A stretch of DNA of 44,888 nucleotides, taken from the NCBI GenBank assembly GCA_013697905.1, contig JACCVZ010000067.1, positions 1 through 44,888 on the forward strand, given 5' to 3'. The notes under the pieces were generated by a model. The model was given only the letters and a program-made list of their open reading frames with translations. It had not been told where the DNA came from and searched no databases. The stretch comes from Nocardioidaceae bacterium (lineage in GTDB: Bacteria > Actinomycetota > Actinomycetes > Propionibacteriales > Nocardioidaceae). Within the stretch, counting starts at the first letter, position 1. The number at the start of each line of letters is the position of its first letter. Positions 26,221 to 33,462 of the stretch are shown piece by piece. The translations under genes and the position numbers were made by a program.

Positions 26221-27423
26221 TCAGAGCCCACTCCGGCGCGTCAGGCCGGTGCCGGCCCAGCGCGCTCCGGCAGCCGTCACAGCGCCGCCCAGCAGGAACG
26301 CCAACGCGCAGACGCCCATCGTGCCCCAGACGTCCGGGCCGATGTCCTGCATCCGGCCCGGCCCGACCGAGCCTCGGGACAGCGCGGTCAAGGCTGCGAA
26401 GCCGACTCCGCCCAGCAGCCCGGCCAGGCCACCACGCAGGGCAGCATGGTCCACCCCGTAGACCGGAAAGTGCCGCACGGCGACCACACCGGCGACCGCG
26501 CCGGCCAGAACCGGCAGCACGACGAGCGCGCTCAACCACCAGGAGGAACCGTCACCTTGGGGCAGTGCCCCCAGCAGCGGGAAGGCGGGCAATACGCCGA
26601 GGTGGACGTCGCCGGGCGCGACGGAGGTGCCGGTCCCGAGCGAGAATCCAGGTCCGGCGATGAAGGCACCCGCGCTCAGCACAGCGTTCGGCACCAGAGC
26701 GGCGCCCAGCAGGGCCAGCACAAGACCGCCGAGGATGCCTGCCCCGGCTCCCTCCGCAAGCGTCGTCACGTCGCCGAAGTGAACCAGCAGGCTTGCAGTG
26801 AACAGCAACGCCCCAGACGCCACCATCACCGCTAACCCGGTGACACCGCCGTACAGGCTGGCTCGCACCTCCTCCGGGAGCAGGGCGAAGAGCTCGTGGC
26901 CGCGACCCGTTCCTCGCAGTACGCCGAGGCCGCCGAGCACAAGTGCCAGCCCCGCCGGCGCCACGGCGCTGCGCACCAGGCCGGCGTGCACGGTCTGAGT
27001 CGAGGTGAGCACGGCGACAGCGGCACCGGCGGCGCCGTATCCGAGGGTCCCCGCAGCCACGCCCGCAGCCACGTCGCCCCAGCCGCGCACCACCGAGTGG
27101 GCCCCCGCCCACCGACCGGTGCGGTAGAGCAGGTAGCCCCACAGACACATCAACCCGAGCGGCACGGCAGTAAGAGCGGTGCCTTCAACTATCAGGCCGC
27201 TGCCGTTGCCGACGAGCCAGCCGAAAGCGCCGGTGCGAACGGCCGAGCCGAACGCACCTGAGCCGCCGGAGAACCACACAGCCACGGCAACCGCGAGACA
27301 GCTGATGAGACCGACCGCGGCAGTGCCCGCAACAGCCAGCAGGGTCGACAGCGCCAGGGGTCGGCTCGGCGTCGGCTCGGTCGGCCGGACCCTCAGGATG
27401 GGACGGGACACGAGCTCAGTCAT
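26221..27423 (-). CDS. DUF6350 family polytopic membrane protein
   Basis: The product is 400 aa, strongly hydrophobic, with about ten predicted membrane segments separated by Gly/Ala-rich loops. It sits immediately upstream of purN, where actinobacteria usually carry a DUF6350 (older name: cell-division-type integral membrane) gene. No catalytic motif is visible and I do not assign a function. The start is ATG 27423, divergent from the sigma-like fusion gene with 163 bases between them. Confidence 0.75.
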   Translation of the reverse strand: MTELVSRPILRVRPTEPTPSRPLALSTLLAVAGTAAVGLISCLAVAVAVWFSGGSGAFGSAVRTGAFGWLVGNGSGLIVEGTALTAVPLGLMCLWGYLLYRTGRWAGAHSVVRGWGDVAAGVAAGTLGYGAAGAAVAVLTSTQTVHAGLVRSAVAPAGLALVLGGLGVLRGTGRGHELFALLPEEVRASLYGGVTGLAVMVASGALLFTASLLVHFGDVTTLAEGAGAGILGGLVLALLGAALVPNAVLSAGAFIAGPGFSLGTGTSVAPGDVHLGVLPAFPLLGALPQGDGSSWWLSALVVLPVLAGAVAGVVAVRHFPVYGVDHAALRGGLAGLLGGVGFAALTALSRGSVGPGRMQDIGPDVWGTMGVCALAFLLGGAVTAAGARWAGTGLTRRSGL

Positions 27424-27586
27424 TGCCGTTCATCGTCTCCCGGGGGACGCCCAGCGTGATGGCTGACACGCCGCACGCCTGCGCTCCGAGGCCAAGGATC
27501 GTCACCGCGGCGGGTTTGTTCTTCCTCACCGATACTCGTTACCGTCGCACCAGGGCTGTCCCCACCCCCGGCAAGGAGTGACGTCG

Positions 27587-29434
27587 ATGTCGCGCGCCGA
27601 CGCATACGCTGCGTTCTACCGCGAGGGCCGCACCCGGCTGCTGGTGCAGGTCTACGCCTTCTGCGGCGACACCGAGGTCGCCCAACGGGCGCTGTCCGAC
27701 GCCTACGTCGCCGCCGCGCACCACTGGCGCAAGCTGGCCGGCGTCCGCGACCCGGACGCGTGGATGCGCGAGCGGGCGTTCCGGGCCACGAGCCGCGCCC
27801 AGAACCAGGGCCGCAAGCCGTGGTATGTCCGTGCCAAGAGAACGGCCGACGAGCACCGCGGCCTGCTCCACGTCCTGCACGCACTCGAGCCGGCCGACCG
27901 GCAGCTGCTGATCGTGCGATCACTGGCCGGTGTCGACCTCTCCACCGCGGCCCGCGAAGTCGGGTTGACCGACGAGGCGGCCGAAGCATCACTCCAGCGC
28001 TCCGCCGACCGCCTGCGCAGAGCCGGCACCGACCCCTCCCCTGCCGCCGTCACCGCCGCGCTGGCGGGCCTGCGGCACGACCTGACCGCGGAACCCGTCG
28101 AACGGGCCAGCCGGCTCCGGCGCGAAGGCAACCGTCGCAGGCATACCCACATGGCGCTGGCCGGCCTCCTTTCGCTGGCGCTCGTGATCGGCGCCGGTGC
28201 GCTGACCGCCACCCGGTTGCCGACGCCGAACGCTCCCGAGGCAACTGCCCCGACGCCCGACCGGCCCACCGTCACACCCGACCGGGCGGACCCCGCGCCG
28301 GAGCCGGCGTTCGACACCACCGAGCTGTCCTCCGTCGCAGACCTGCGAAGGCTTGGCTTACCCCGCCCATGGCGACTCATCGAGACATCGCCCGACTTCG
28401 GTGTCACGACGCCGTACGACGCGTGCCTGCCAGCAGTGCCGAGCGACCCACACGCCGAGCACTCATGGGTCCGCACGTTCGAGTCCGGCACCGGGAGTCG
28501 CCGCACCGTGGCTGTCCACGCGCTCGAAGTCTCAAGATCGGCCGACGCCTCTGACCGCAACTACAGGCGACTGGTGAAGACGTACTCCGGCTGCCTCGCG
28601 GACAACCACCAGATTGAGCGTTACGCAGCACTGCGTGGCGTCGGTGACGCAGGCAGCCTGATCACGATGCGATACGTCGACCGCCGAGGCATCCACGACC
28701 AGCAGGTGGCCATCGCCCAGTCCGGAACTGCGGTCATCACCTGGGTCATCGACGCCCCCACGACCGGACCGGTGGTCGGTGCGCGGCTGGTCGGACTCGC
28801 CGCGGCGTCCGTGCGCCGCGTGTGTGCGGCAGCAACCGGCAGCTGCGGTCGGCGCCCTTTCACCGCGGTCGAACAACCACCGCCGAGCGTCGACCGCGCC
28901 AAGGGCTTTCTCACCGTGGTCGACCTGCCGGTCTTCGCCGGTCTCACCGACCCATGGGTCGCGACCGGGCCGAGCACCGCGCGGATCAATCCGGCCGCCA
29001 CCGACTGCGACCGCGCCGACTTCGCCGGTGCCGGGGCCGAGCTGATCCGCGCCCGCAGCTTCGTGGTACCCGACGCAGAGAGGCTGCCGGACATCTTCGG
29101 CATGACGCAGACGGTGGGCAGGTTCGGCTCCGTCGACGCGGCCAACGCGTTCCTCGACGAGGTCGACGCATCCGTCCGAGGTTGCAGCGATCGTCAGATC
29201 TCCCTCGAGGTCAATGCCGACGACCCCATCACGGTGGCGCGGGGGGGCGGGCGCACCTACGAGATCACCCTGACCACCTCGGAGTCACGCACGATCACTT
29301 TCCGGATGGGACTGATCCGGGTGGGCACCCAGGTTGCCCAGATAACCTTCACGCCCAGCGAGCGGTTCGACGTGTCTCCCGACGAGTTCGATCAGGTCGT
29401 GCAACGCGCCGCCTTGCGGGCCACCCAAGCGTGA
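27587..29434 (+). CDS. Sigma-factor-like protein fused to a membrane anchor and extracytoplasmic sensor-like region
   Basis: The product is 615 aa from ATG 27587, with AAGGAG eight bases upstream. Residues 5-75 resemble ECF sigma region 2 (YREGRTRLLVQVYAFCGDTE) and 95-148 resemble region 4 (LEPADRQLLIVRSL, AAREVGLTDEAAEASLQRSA). A basic stretch (171-187) and one membrane helix (188-209) follow, then a Pro/Thr-rich linker. A roughly 370-residue outer part appears to have two similar halves with a few Cys residues, like PknH-type sensor domains. Sigma-like DNA-binding modules tethered to the membrane are unusual; the expected separate anti-sigma gene is absent. It may be a membrane-bound regulator or a diverged non-sigma protein. 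Region 2 lacks clear -10-recognition residues, so true sigma activity is unproven. Confidence 0.7.
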   Translation: MSRADAYAAFYREGRTRLLVQVYAFCGDTEVAQRALSDAYVAAAHHWRKLAGVRDPDAWMRERAFRATSRAQNQGRKPWYVRAKRTADEHRGLLHVLHALEPADRQLLIVRSLAGVDLSTAAREVGLTDEAAEASLQRSADRLRRAGTDPSPAAVTAALAGLRHDLTAEPVERASRLRREGNRRRHTHMALAGLLSLALVIGAGALTATRLPTPNAPEATAPTPDRPTVTPDRADPAPEPAFDTTELSSVADLRRLGLPRPWRLIETSPDFGVTTPYDACLPAVPSDPHAEHSWVRTFESGTGSRRTVAVHALEVSRSADASDRNYRRLVKTYSGCLADNHQIERYAALRGVGDAGSLITMRYVDRRGIHDQQVAIAQSGTAVITWVIDAPTTGPVVGARLVGLAAASVRRVCAAATGSCGRRPFTAVEQPPPSVDRAKGFLTVVDLPVFAGLTDPWVATGPSTARINPAATDCDRADFAGAGAELIRARSFVVPDAERLPDIFGMTQTVGRFGSVDAANAFLDEVDASVRGCSDRQISLEVNADDPITVARGGGRTYEITLTTSESRTITFRMGLIRVGTQVAQITFTPSERFDVSPDEFDQVVQRAALRATQA

Positions 29435-29513: not shown

Positions 29514-30395
29514 CTACTGCTCGAGCAGGTCCCGCATCAGCTGAGCCGTCTCGGACGGAGTCTTGCCGACCTTGACGCCAGCCGCTTCGAGGGCTTCCTT
29601 CTTGGCCTGCGCTGTCCCGGACGAGCCGGACACGATCGCTCCGGCGTGACCCATCGTCTTGCCTTCCGGAGCGGTGAAGCCGGCGACGTACCCGACTACG
29701 GCCTTGCTGATGTTGTCCTCGATGTACGCCGCCGCACGCTCCTCGGCATCGCCACCGATCTCGCCGATCATCACGATGGCGTCGGTGTCTGGGTCGTCCT
29801 GGAACGCTTGCAGTACGTCGATGTGGGTGGTCCCGACGATGGGGTCCCCGCCGATGCCGACTGCGGAGGAGAAGCCGATGTCACGCAGCTCGTACATCAT
29901 CTGGTAGGTCAGCGTCCCAGACTTCGACACGAGACCGATGCGCCCGGCCTTGGTGATGTCTGCCGGGATGATTCCGGCATTGGACTTGCCGGGGCTGATC
30001 AGCCCGGGGCAGTTGGGGCCGATCACCCGTGAGGTGCCCTTGGACTGCGCATAGGCGAACAGCTCCGCGGTGTCACTGACTGGCACTCCCTCGGTGATCA
30101 CCACGATGAGCGGGATGCCGGCGTCAACGGACTCCACGACCGCAGCCAACGTGTGCTTCGGCGGCACGAAGACCACCGAGACGTCCGCCCCGGTGGCCCC
30201 CACGGCTTCGGCGACAGAGTTGAACACCGGGACGGAAGCACCGTCGAAGTCGACGGTCTGACCACCCTTCTTCGGCGTCACTCCGCCCACGACGCTGGTG
30301 CCGGAGTCGAGCATCCGCTGGGTGTGCTTCGAGCCCTCGGATCCCGTCATGCCCTGCACGATGACCTTGGAGCCCTCGGTCAGGAAGATCGCCAT
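29514..30395 (-). CDS. sucD: Succinyl-CoA ligase (ADP/GDP-forming) alpha subunit
   Basis: The product is 293 aa. Motifs are [14 protein letters not shown] (CoA-binding start), [12 protein letters not shown], and the phosphorylated His250 in [12 protein letters not shown]. With SucC it makes succinate plus nucleoside triphosphate in the TCA cycle. Its ATG lies one base after the sucC stop and an AGGAG is inside the sucC end. It is convergent with the sigma-like fusion. Confidence 0.98.
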
Positions 30396-32703: not shown

Positions 32704-33099
32704 TCAGGCGTCTGTCATCGCACGGTGGACCCAGTGCACGACGTCTTGGGTCTTCGTGCCGGGCGTGAAAATCTTGGCGACTCCGACCTCCTCGAGCAGG
32801 GGAATGTCGGCCTCGGGGATGATGCCGCCACCGAAGACGATGATGTCGGAGGCGTCACGCTCGTCGAGCAGCTGCATGACCTTCTTGAATAGCGTCAGGT
32901 GAGCGCCGGATAATACCGACAGGCCCACGATGTCGGCGTCCTCCTGGATGGCGGTCTCGACAATCTGCTCGGGCGTCTGATGCAGGCCGGTGTAGACGAC
33001 CTCCATGCCCGCGTCGCGCAGTGCTCGGGCAATCACCTTGGCGCCGCGGTCGTGCCCGTCGAGTCCGGGTTTGGCGACCACGATCCGTATCGGGGCCAT
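32704..33099 (-). CDS. Stand-alone cobalamin-binding domain protein (methylmalonyl-CoA mutase C-terminal type)
   Basis: The product is 131 aa. [20 protein letters not shown] (5-24) is the B12-binding start of acyl-CoA mutases, with DGHDRG giving His16 as the cobalt ligand. [14 protein letters not shown] and [12 protein letters not shown] complete the fold. No mutase catalytic chain is adjacent, so it may be a subunit of a split mutase encoded elsewhere, or a sensor. I chose ATG 33099; a start at 33129 adds ten unconserved residues. It is unrelated in type to the corrinoid methyl carrier at 17499, which belongs to the methyltransferase branch. Confidence 0.88.
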
Positions 33100-33462
33100 G
33101 TCGAGCTCACCGCCTCTGTGCCGTGCCACGGGCGAGTCCTCGTGACGTCGTACGACGGGTCGAGACTAGCCAATCGGCGTACCACCGGCACGAGGTGGCC
33201 ACGGCGGCCCGGATCCTGCGTCACACCCCGACTCGACCGGTGCGGAGTTTACTCGGAGCAACGCTGAATTCACGCAAGGTCACCGAAGGATGGACGTCGG
33301 GTGACCCCTCACACACCCGGCGTCACAAGGTGAACTTTCCGGCCTCATCGCGTAACCTCGCCTGGGTCCACAGCCGACCAGCCGCCGGTTTCCCACGGTG
33401 GCAGATTCGGCTAGCGTCGGACATTCCTGCCCCACGTTGTCTGCCGGAAGGAACTCCCCAGC
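33100..33462. other. Gene-free interval upstream of the M23 peptidase gene
   Basis: These 363 bases separate the divergent B12-binding and peptidase genes. I see no convincing small gene, repeat or riboswitch. A TAACCT box near 33353 could be a -10 element for a long 5' leader of the peptidase gene; this is weak. Confidence 0.4.

Follow-up and report, generated by a model that had tools for sequence, protein, structure and literature searches.

The window, as we call the whole 44,888-nucleotide stretch analysed here (Nocardioidaceae bacterium, contig JACCVZ010000067.1), carries a gene for a protein of 615 residues in which a sigma-like domain is followed by a short cytoplasmic segment, a membrane helix and a large outer part (Table 1). 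Homologues of this fusion begin at the same start position as the window gene in the relatives that we compared. A sequence-only reading of this DNA had placed the gene between DUF6350 and sucD and had noted that no separate anti-sigma gene is adjacent. Both neighbours were found there, and no separate anti-sigma gene adjoins the fusion gene in the window; the syntenic relatives were inspected as well. Elsewhere in the window, positions 32704–33129 (−) encode a further protein of 141 aa; by eye it resembles a cobalamin-binding subunit of the methylmalonyl-CoA-mutase type.

Table 1. Features of the fusion gene and its surroundings, with related genes at named loci (L) of other genomes.
Feature	Sequence	Position	Strand	Basis or remark
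DUF6350 membrane protein	window	26221–27423	−	divergent neighbour; syntenic marker
Shine-Dalgarno AAGGAG	window	27573–27578	+	8 nt before ATG at 27587; read off the sequence
Pseudo-sigma/membrane sensor fusion gene (putative)	window	27587–29434	+	615 aa, stop included
Sigma region 2-like domain, residues 3–73	window	27593–27805	+	TIGR02983, AlphaFold (AF2), residue census
Sigma region 4-like domain, residues 88–146	window	27848–28024	+	Pfam, AF2, Foldseek, residue census
Juxtamembrane cytoplasmic segment, residues 150–182	window	28034–28132	+	split-partner profile, AF2
Single transmembrane (TM) helix, residues about 188–209	window	28148–28213	+	hydropathy, charge count
Pro/Thr-rich disordered linker, residues 210–245	window	28214–28321	+	AF2, conservation
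Outer domain 1, residues 246–424	window	28322–28858	+	invariant Cys 280, 336, 413, 420
Outer domain 2, residues 425–615, PknH_C-like	window	28859–29431	+	invariant Cys 474, 533
sucD	window	29514–30395	−	convergent neighbour; syntenic marker
Short sigma-TM proteins of family f22	L156	6568–7521		also L181, L182, L184, L185, L186
Tandem duplicates of family f23	L143	2591–3166 and 4604–5098		also L118, L123, L127
Kynureninase-like genes	L034; L041; L042; L143	7963–9387; 7872–9104; 4602–5861; 6635–7867		

The N-terminal part had been read as sigma regions 2 and 4, and searches of the separate parts bear this out. TIGR02983, the profile of SigE-family sigmas, matches residues 3–146 at E 4e-11, and AlphaFold and Foldseek give an ECF sigma fold over the same residues. 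The score of the window protein (43.1 bits) is below the curated cut-off of 141.55, Pfam Sigma70_r4_2 matches region 4 weakly (E 0.07), and phmmer with the window protein found no match in the PDB. Residues 1–182, modelled with 38 homologues of the cytoplasmic part, reached a pLDDT of 91.5 and a pTM of 0.87, and Foldseek matched the model to ECF sigma factors (SigG1, E 3.3e-4). Over the whole chain, closed-form sigmas bound to an anti-sigma (SigW/RsiW, RpoE/NepR and CnrH/CnrY) matched it with target TM 0.64–0.70, and RNAP-bound sigmas with just 0.29–0.37. The open anti-sigma complexes (sigmaE/RseA, AlgU/MucA and SigK) were also poor matches, so that the likeness is specifically to the closed class. 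As evidence the closed form is weak, since AlphaFold might give free ECF sigmas such a shape in any case. By sequence and predicted fold, the domain is a descendant of the SigE-family ECF sigmas (TIGR02983). The fusion occurs in 141 of the 150 genomes of its family, the Nocardioidaceae, and chance resemblance to sigma was ruled out by this spread together with the high-confidence model.

The remainder of the chain also has the outline given to it earlier, a single helix at 188–209 followed by a duplicated extracytoplasmic part. Hydropathy gives one hydrophobic helix at about those residues, and the two outer domains are related to each other (hhalign, E 4.5e-6). The 38 residues before the TM helix hold eight K/R, and this basic cluster on its N side indicates an N-in orientation. 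AlphaFold draws two helices in the juxtamembrane segment (152–166 and 174–181) and gives pLDDT below 50 at 186–239; the linker is the least conserved region, and the full-length model, from an alignment of 17 full-length homologues, has a mean pLDDT of 80.8. The cysteines of the window protein are at 26, 280, 336, 413, 420, 474 and 533. With none between 27 and 279 there is no zinc finger between sigma and TM, and a zinc-finger anti-sigma domain in that stretch was thereby ruled out. PF14032 (PknH_C) matches outer domain 2 of the window protein at E 6e-4, with 20.2 bits against a gathering score of 27, and it matches 9 of the 17 homologues at E <0.01. By fold, PknH (4ESQ) is a tentative match to the outer domains, with target TM 0.56 and a Foldseek probability of 1.00 but E 8.5e-3, and 4ESQ and TiME (7CU8) span target TM values of about 0.56–0.61. 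This anatomy, a sigma fold, a juxtamembrane segment, a TM helix and two outer domains, is almost certainly correct.

What the segment after the sigma domain may be is suggested by relatives in which the two parts are separate genes. Directly after each of the 42 canonical sigma ORFs examined comes a gene for a single-TM partner, in most cases with an ATGA-type start/stop overlap. In these split partners the TM helix is preceded by about 40 cytoplasmic residues, which in many end in an LPxxEVRRRGDRxRRR-like motif, and the pairing and architecture of the partners lead us to infer that they are anti-sigmas. A profile of their segment plus TM finds 38 of the 39 fused proteins, at approximately residues 150–205, with no matches among reversed or shuffled controls; for the window protein its i-E is 9.5e-5, or 3.5e-3 for a profile limited to the cytoplasmic part. 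Split partners and fused proteins can also be aligned in their outer domains, at E 3.5e-15 over 327 columns. Together, the profile matches and the outer-domain alignment indicate that residues 150–615 are the membrane partner, a candidate anti-sigma, and its presence in the same chain would explain why no separate anti-sigma gene lies nearby. To judge from these comparisons, the gene is very probably an ECF (SigE-family) sigma fused with its own single-pass membrane partner.

Sigma residues were compared across 39 fused proteins, aligned with 31 intact sister-clade sigmas and with 21 SigE-family sigmas from outside that clade. In sigma70, the region 2.2 Gln (Q406) contacts the beta-prime coiled coil. 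This Gln, within the DxxQE motif, is present in 52 of 52 canonical sigmas and 1 of 39 fused proteins, and the window protein has S37 there (27695–27697). The acid of region 2.2 is retained in only 10 of the 39. The Lys of the region 4 recognition helix is found in 51/52 canonical and 1/39 fused proteins, with E133 replacing it in the window protein; its equivalent in SigW, K170, contacts a −35 base (PMC6713349). Both residues occur together in 51 of 52 canonical SigE-family sigmas and in none of the fused proteins, which have also all lost the Gly of the GTVK motif (0/39). The recognition helix (129–145; 27971–28021) reads EAAEASLQR in the window protein and GTVKARLSR in canonical relatives, and its mean charge shifts from +3.3 in canonical to −1.9 in fused proteins. 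R61, R105 and W47, residues of the fold and the clade, are kept in 39/39 fused proteins. The clade-specific acid E124 is kept in all 39 as well, and it is present in 31/31 sister-clade sigmas and 0/21 other SigE sigmas. We had considered E124 as the counterpart of SigW E157, which belongs to the fold and contacts sigma2 (PMC6713349), and rejected this, as counting along the helix puts SigW E157 at T120. By this census, the pseudo-sigma has most likely lost sigma function.

The sequence-only reading had proposed a tethered regulator whose release depends on proteolysis. Taken as release of a working sigma, this is contradicted by the census, since RNA-polymerase and promoter-contact residues are lost in all 39 fused homologues. 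A working ECF sigma held at the membrane and freed by regulated cleavage between residues 150 and 210 would fit the order of sigma, TM helix and outer part, which is that of ECF48, ECF52 and ECF53 (PMC8999054). Moreover, Nocardioides iriomotensis (L219; L042 2585–4495) does carry an intact sigma fused to the same kind of partner. However, in a tree of sigma domains this second fusion falls among the canonical sigmas and was thus a separate event, and we consider a released working sigma improbable for the window protein. The same residues bear on the idea of a membrane decoy that binds core polymerase through other residues and so blocks or localises it. The region 2 fold is the best-conserved part of the fusion, but the near-complete loss of the region 2.2 Gln and the infrequent retention of the acid make a decoy very hard to credit.

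Across fused pairs, mean identity is 0.44 in region 2 and 0.33 and 0.37 in the outer domains. The pN/pS of region 2 is 0.10–0.44 in the five closest fused pairs, and purifying selection on region 2 is also seen in pairs of the genus g19, in whose listed genomes no member of the intact sigma clade was found. These substitution patterns indicate that the pseudo-sigma is under purifying selection as strong as, or stronger than, that on the outer domains. The other possibility raised by the sequence-only reading, a family in which sigma domains have become cytoplasmic scaffolds, came near to this result, a sigma fold under purifying selection without sigma determinants; what that reading had missed was the anti-sigma candidate within the same chain and the intact pair next door in relatives. 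The selection also argues against a sigma domain that is a vestige in the course of being lost. In f2, f3 and one f1 genome (G009), only the TM helix and outer part were recognised at the slot between DUF6350 and sucD, as would be expected of a vestige, but retention of the pseudo-sigma across nearly the whole family, under selection at least equal to that on the outer domains, makes decay a very improbable account.

The slot itself differs among relatives. An intact SigE-type sigma gene, overlapping or abutting the gene of a single-TM protein, occupies it in the related family f4 as well as in f12, f31 and f23. Family f23 has a tandem duplication of this pair, and the copy adjoining DUF6350 is half-decayed, having lost the recognition-helix Lys and kept the region 2.2 Gln; this copy is possibly an intermediate toward the pseudo-sigma. 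In the sigma-domain tree the fused pseudo-sigmas form one group (support 78/86). As a separate observation, genomes of f22 (7–10 Mb) encode at the DUF6350/sucD slot a sigma-like protein that is short, having a TM helix but hardly any outer part, and this protein also lacks the sigma determinants. With four of these shorter proteins joined to it, the pseudo-sigma group has support of 89/93, and two further f22 rows fall elsewhere in the tree, on very long branches. The series suggests, tentatively, an order of events that would run from split pair through duplication and fusion to loss of the sigma part.

Wherever the slot was inspected, the fusion adjoins DUF6350 and usually also sucD. Members of the intact sigma clade, matched at E 1e-25, occur in 55 of the 150 genomes of the family; the genome of the window has none at this threshold and hence has no intact sigma/partner pair. 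A scan of genome contigs gave no loci with the window protein as query, and loci were obtained with intact sigmas as queries. The resulting 80 named loci were picked by the presence of an intact sigma, and a full-length fused pseudo-sigma protein is encoded in 54 of them. In 53 of the 80, a proportion that is not a family frequency because of how the loci were chosen, the fusion lies upstream of the intact sigma, on the same strand and no more than 3 kb away. The gap between them is 73–171 bp in 46 named loci, mostly Nocardioides, and 0.96–1.5 kb in seven, several of these seven gaps containing kynureninase. Downstream of the partner of the intact pair usually comes sucD. A kynU-like gene lies between the fusion and the intact pair, or after the pair, in several relatives (Table 1), and its placement hints either at a link to tryptophan/kynurenine metabolism or at a variable slot. 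The genus of the window genome is represented by draft genomes only, and in one of these, G003 (L033 2242–3379), the gene is broken over several frames, which is a draft-assembly error or a broken copy.

This linkage bears on what the pseudo-sigma might bind. It could be a general cytoplasmic adaptor, or the structural base of a sensor, that binds a protein unrelated to sigma control, and strong conservation of the fold without sigma determinants would suit such a role, as would the presence of the fusion where the intact pair does not exist. Against this, both the tight linkage to an intact sigma and its partner in many Nocardioides and the retention of E124, shared only with the intact sister sigmas, point to sigma-related binding; we regard an adaptor as unlikely, yet as an alternative to be taken seriously. 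As a whole, an account of the protein as a membrane-held sigma mimic with envelope-sensing outer domains and no role as a transcription factor seems to us the best explanation, with about an even chance of being right. Sigma mimicry taken by itself is a plausible proposal that we hold tentatively, at somewhat less than even. Under the mimic model, the two cysteine-bearing PknH-like outer domains would sense the state of the envelope, and the two juxtamembrane helices would pack against the sigma fold, giving a closed form similar to that of sigmas bound to CnrY or NepR. A signal might then alter this packing, upon which the pseudo-sigma would bind or release an anti-sigma segment, its own or that of a paralogue, so that the fusion would act as an anti-anti-sigma at the membrane rather than as a transcription factor. 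In Nocardioides, where an intact sigma is encoded about 100 bp downstream, its membrane partner would be the natural target. Mimicry of the intact pair cannot be the whole function, since neither the window's genome nor most of the family has that pair. More speculatively, and with a lower likelihood again, such proteins may form a widespread class of membrane-anchored mimics, arising when an ECF sigma/anti-sigma pair is duplicated and one copy is fused and loses its polymerase and promoter contacts; they would pass on envelope signals by acting in one step as anti-anti-sigmas, either on the neighbouring intact pair or, in genomes without it, on other anti-sigmas.

PhyR, a soluble response regulator, is the known case of sigma mimicry, and fused membrane sigmas are known but have been taken as working factors freed by proteolysis; in our literature search, no membrane-tethered or pseudo-sigma factor of this kind had been described before. 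Since the working residues are missing from the sigma part of a conserved fused family, architecture alone is no sufficient ground for annotating a sigma-TM protein as a transcription factor. The present fusion may well relay envelope signals by imitating a sigma, not by switching genes on itself. The locus also offers a natural series, from split pair through decaying duplicate and fused pseudo-sigma to loss of the sigma part, for testing how regulators evolve.

Among known systems, ECF48, ECF52 (SCO4117) and ECF53 of Actinobacteria likewise join in one chain a sigma, a C-terminal membrane-spanning anti-sigma-like part and a large outer region; their descriptions include a zinc-finger (ZAS) domain and treat them as working sigmas (PMC8999054, PMC5826349). 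Proteolytic release has been proposed for ECF52/53 and shown for IutY. The window fusion differs in having no zinc finger, PknH_C-like outer domains and a sigma part without its determinants, which, judged by those residues, appears unable to act in transcription as that of an ECF52/ECF53-like protein would. Compared with the SigE-family sigmas of TIGR02983, it falls below the profile's curated cut-off and lacks key functional residues. CnrH/CnrY is alike in the about 40 cytoplasmic residues and one TM helix of the split partners and in its fit to the model (target TM 0.65), a likeness seen in structure, and the outer domains of the fusion are PknH_C-like. These tentatively match the PknH sensor domain and TiME by fold, whereas the fusion has two copies on a pseudo-sigma base and no kinase. 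In PhyR, a sigma fold frees the real sigma by binding its anti-sigma (the PhyR/NepR/EcfG partner switch; PMC4598750); NepR was not found. PhyR, which is also among the Foldseek matches, shares with the fusion a sigma fold without polymerase or promoter determinants, and it is genetically linked to a real sigma and anti-sigma. For the fusion, genes for an intact sigma and its presumed anti-sigma are linked in 46–53 named relatives and are not present in the window's genome. A receiver domain controls the soluble PhyR, whereas the fusion has none (Pfam, AlphaFold) and its control would pass through the TM helix and the outer domains.
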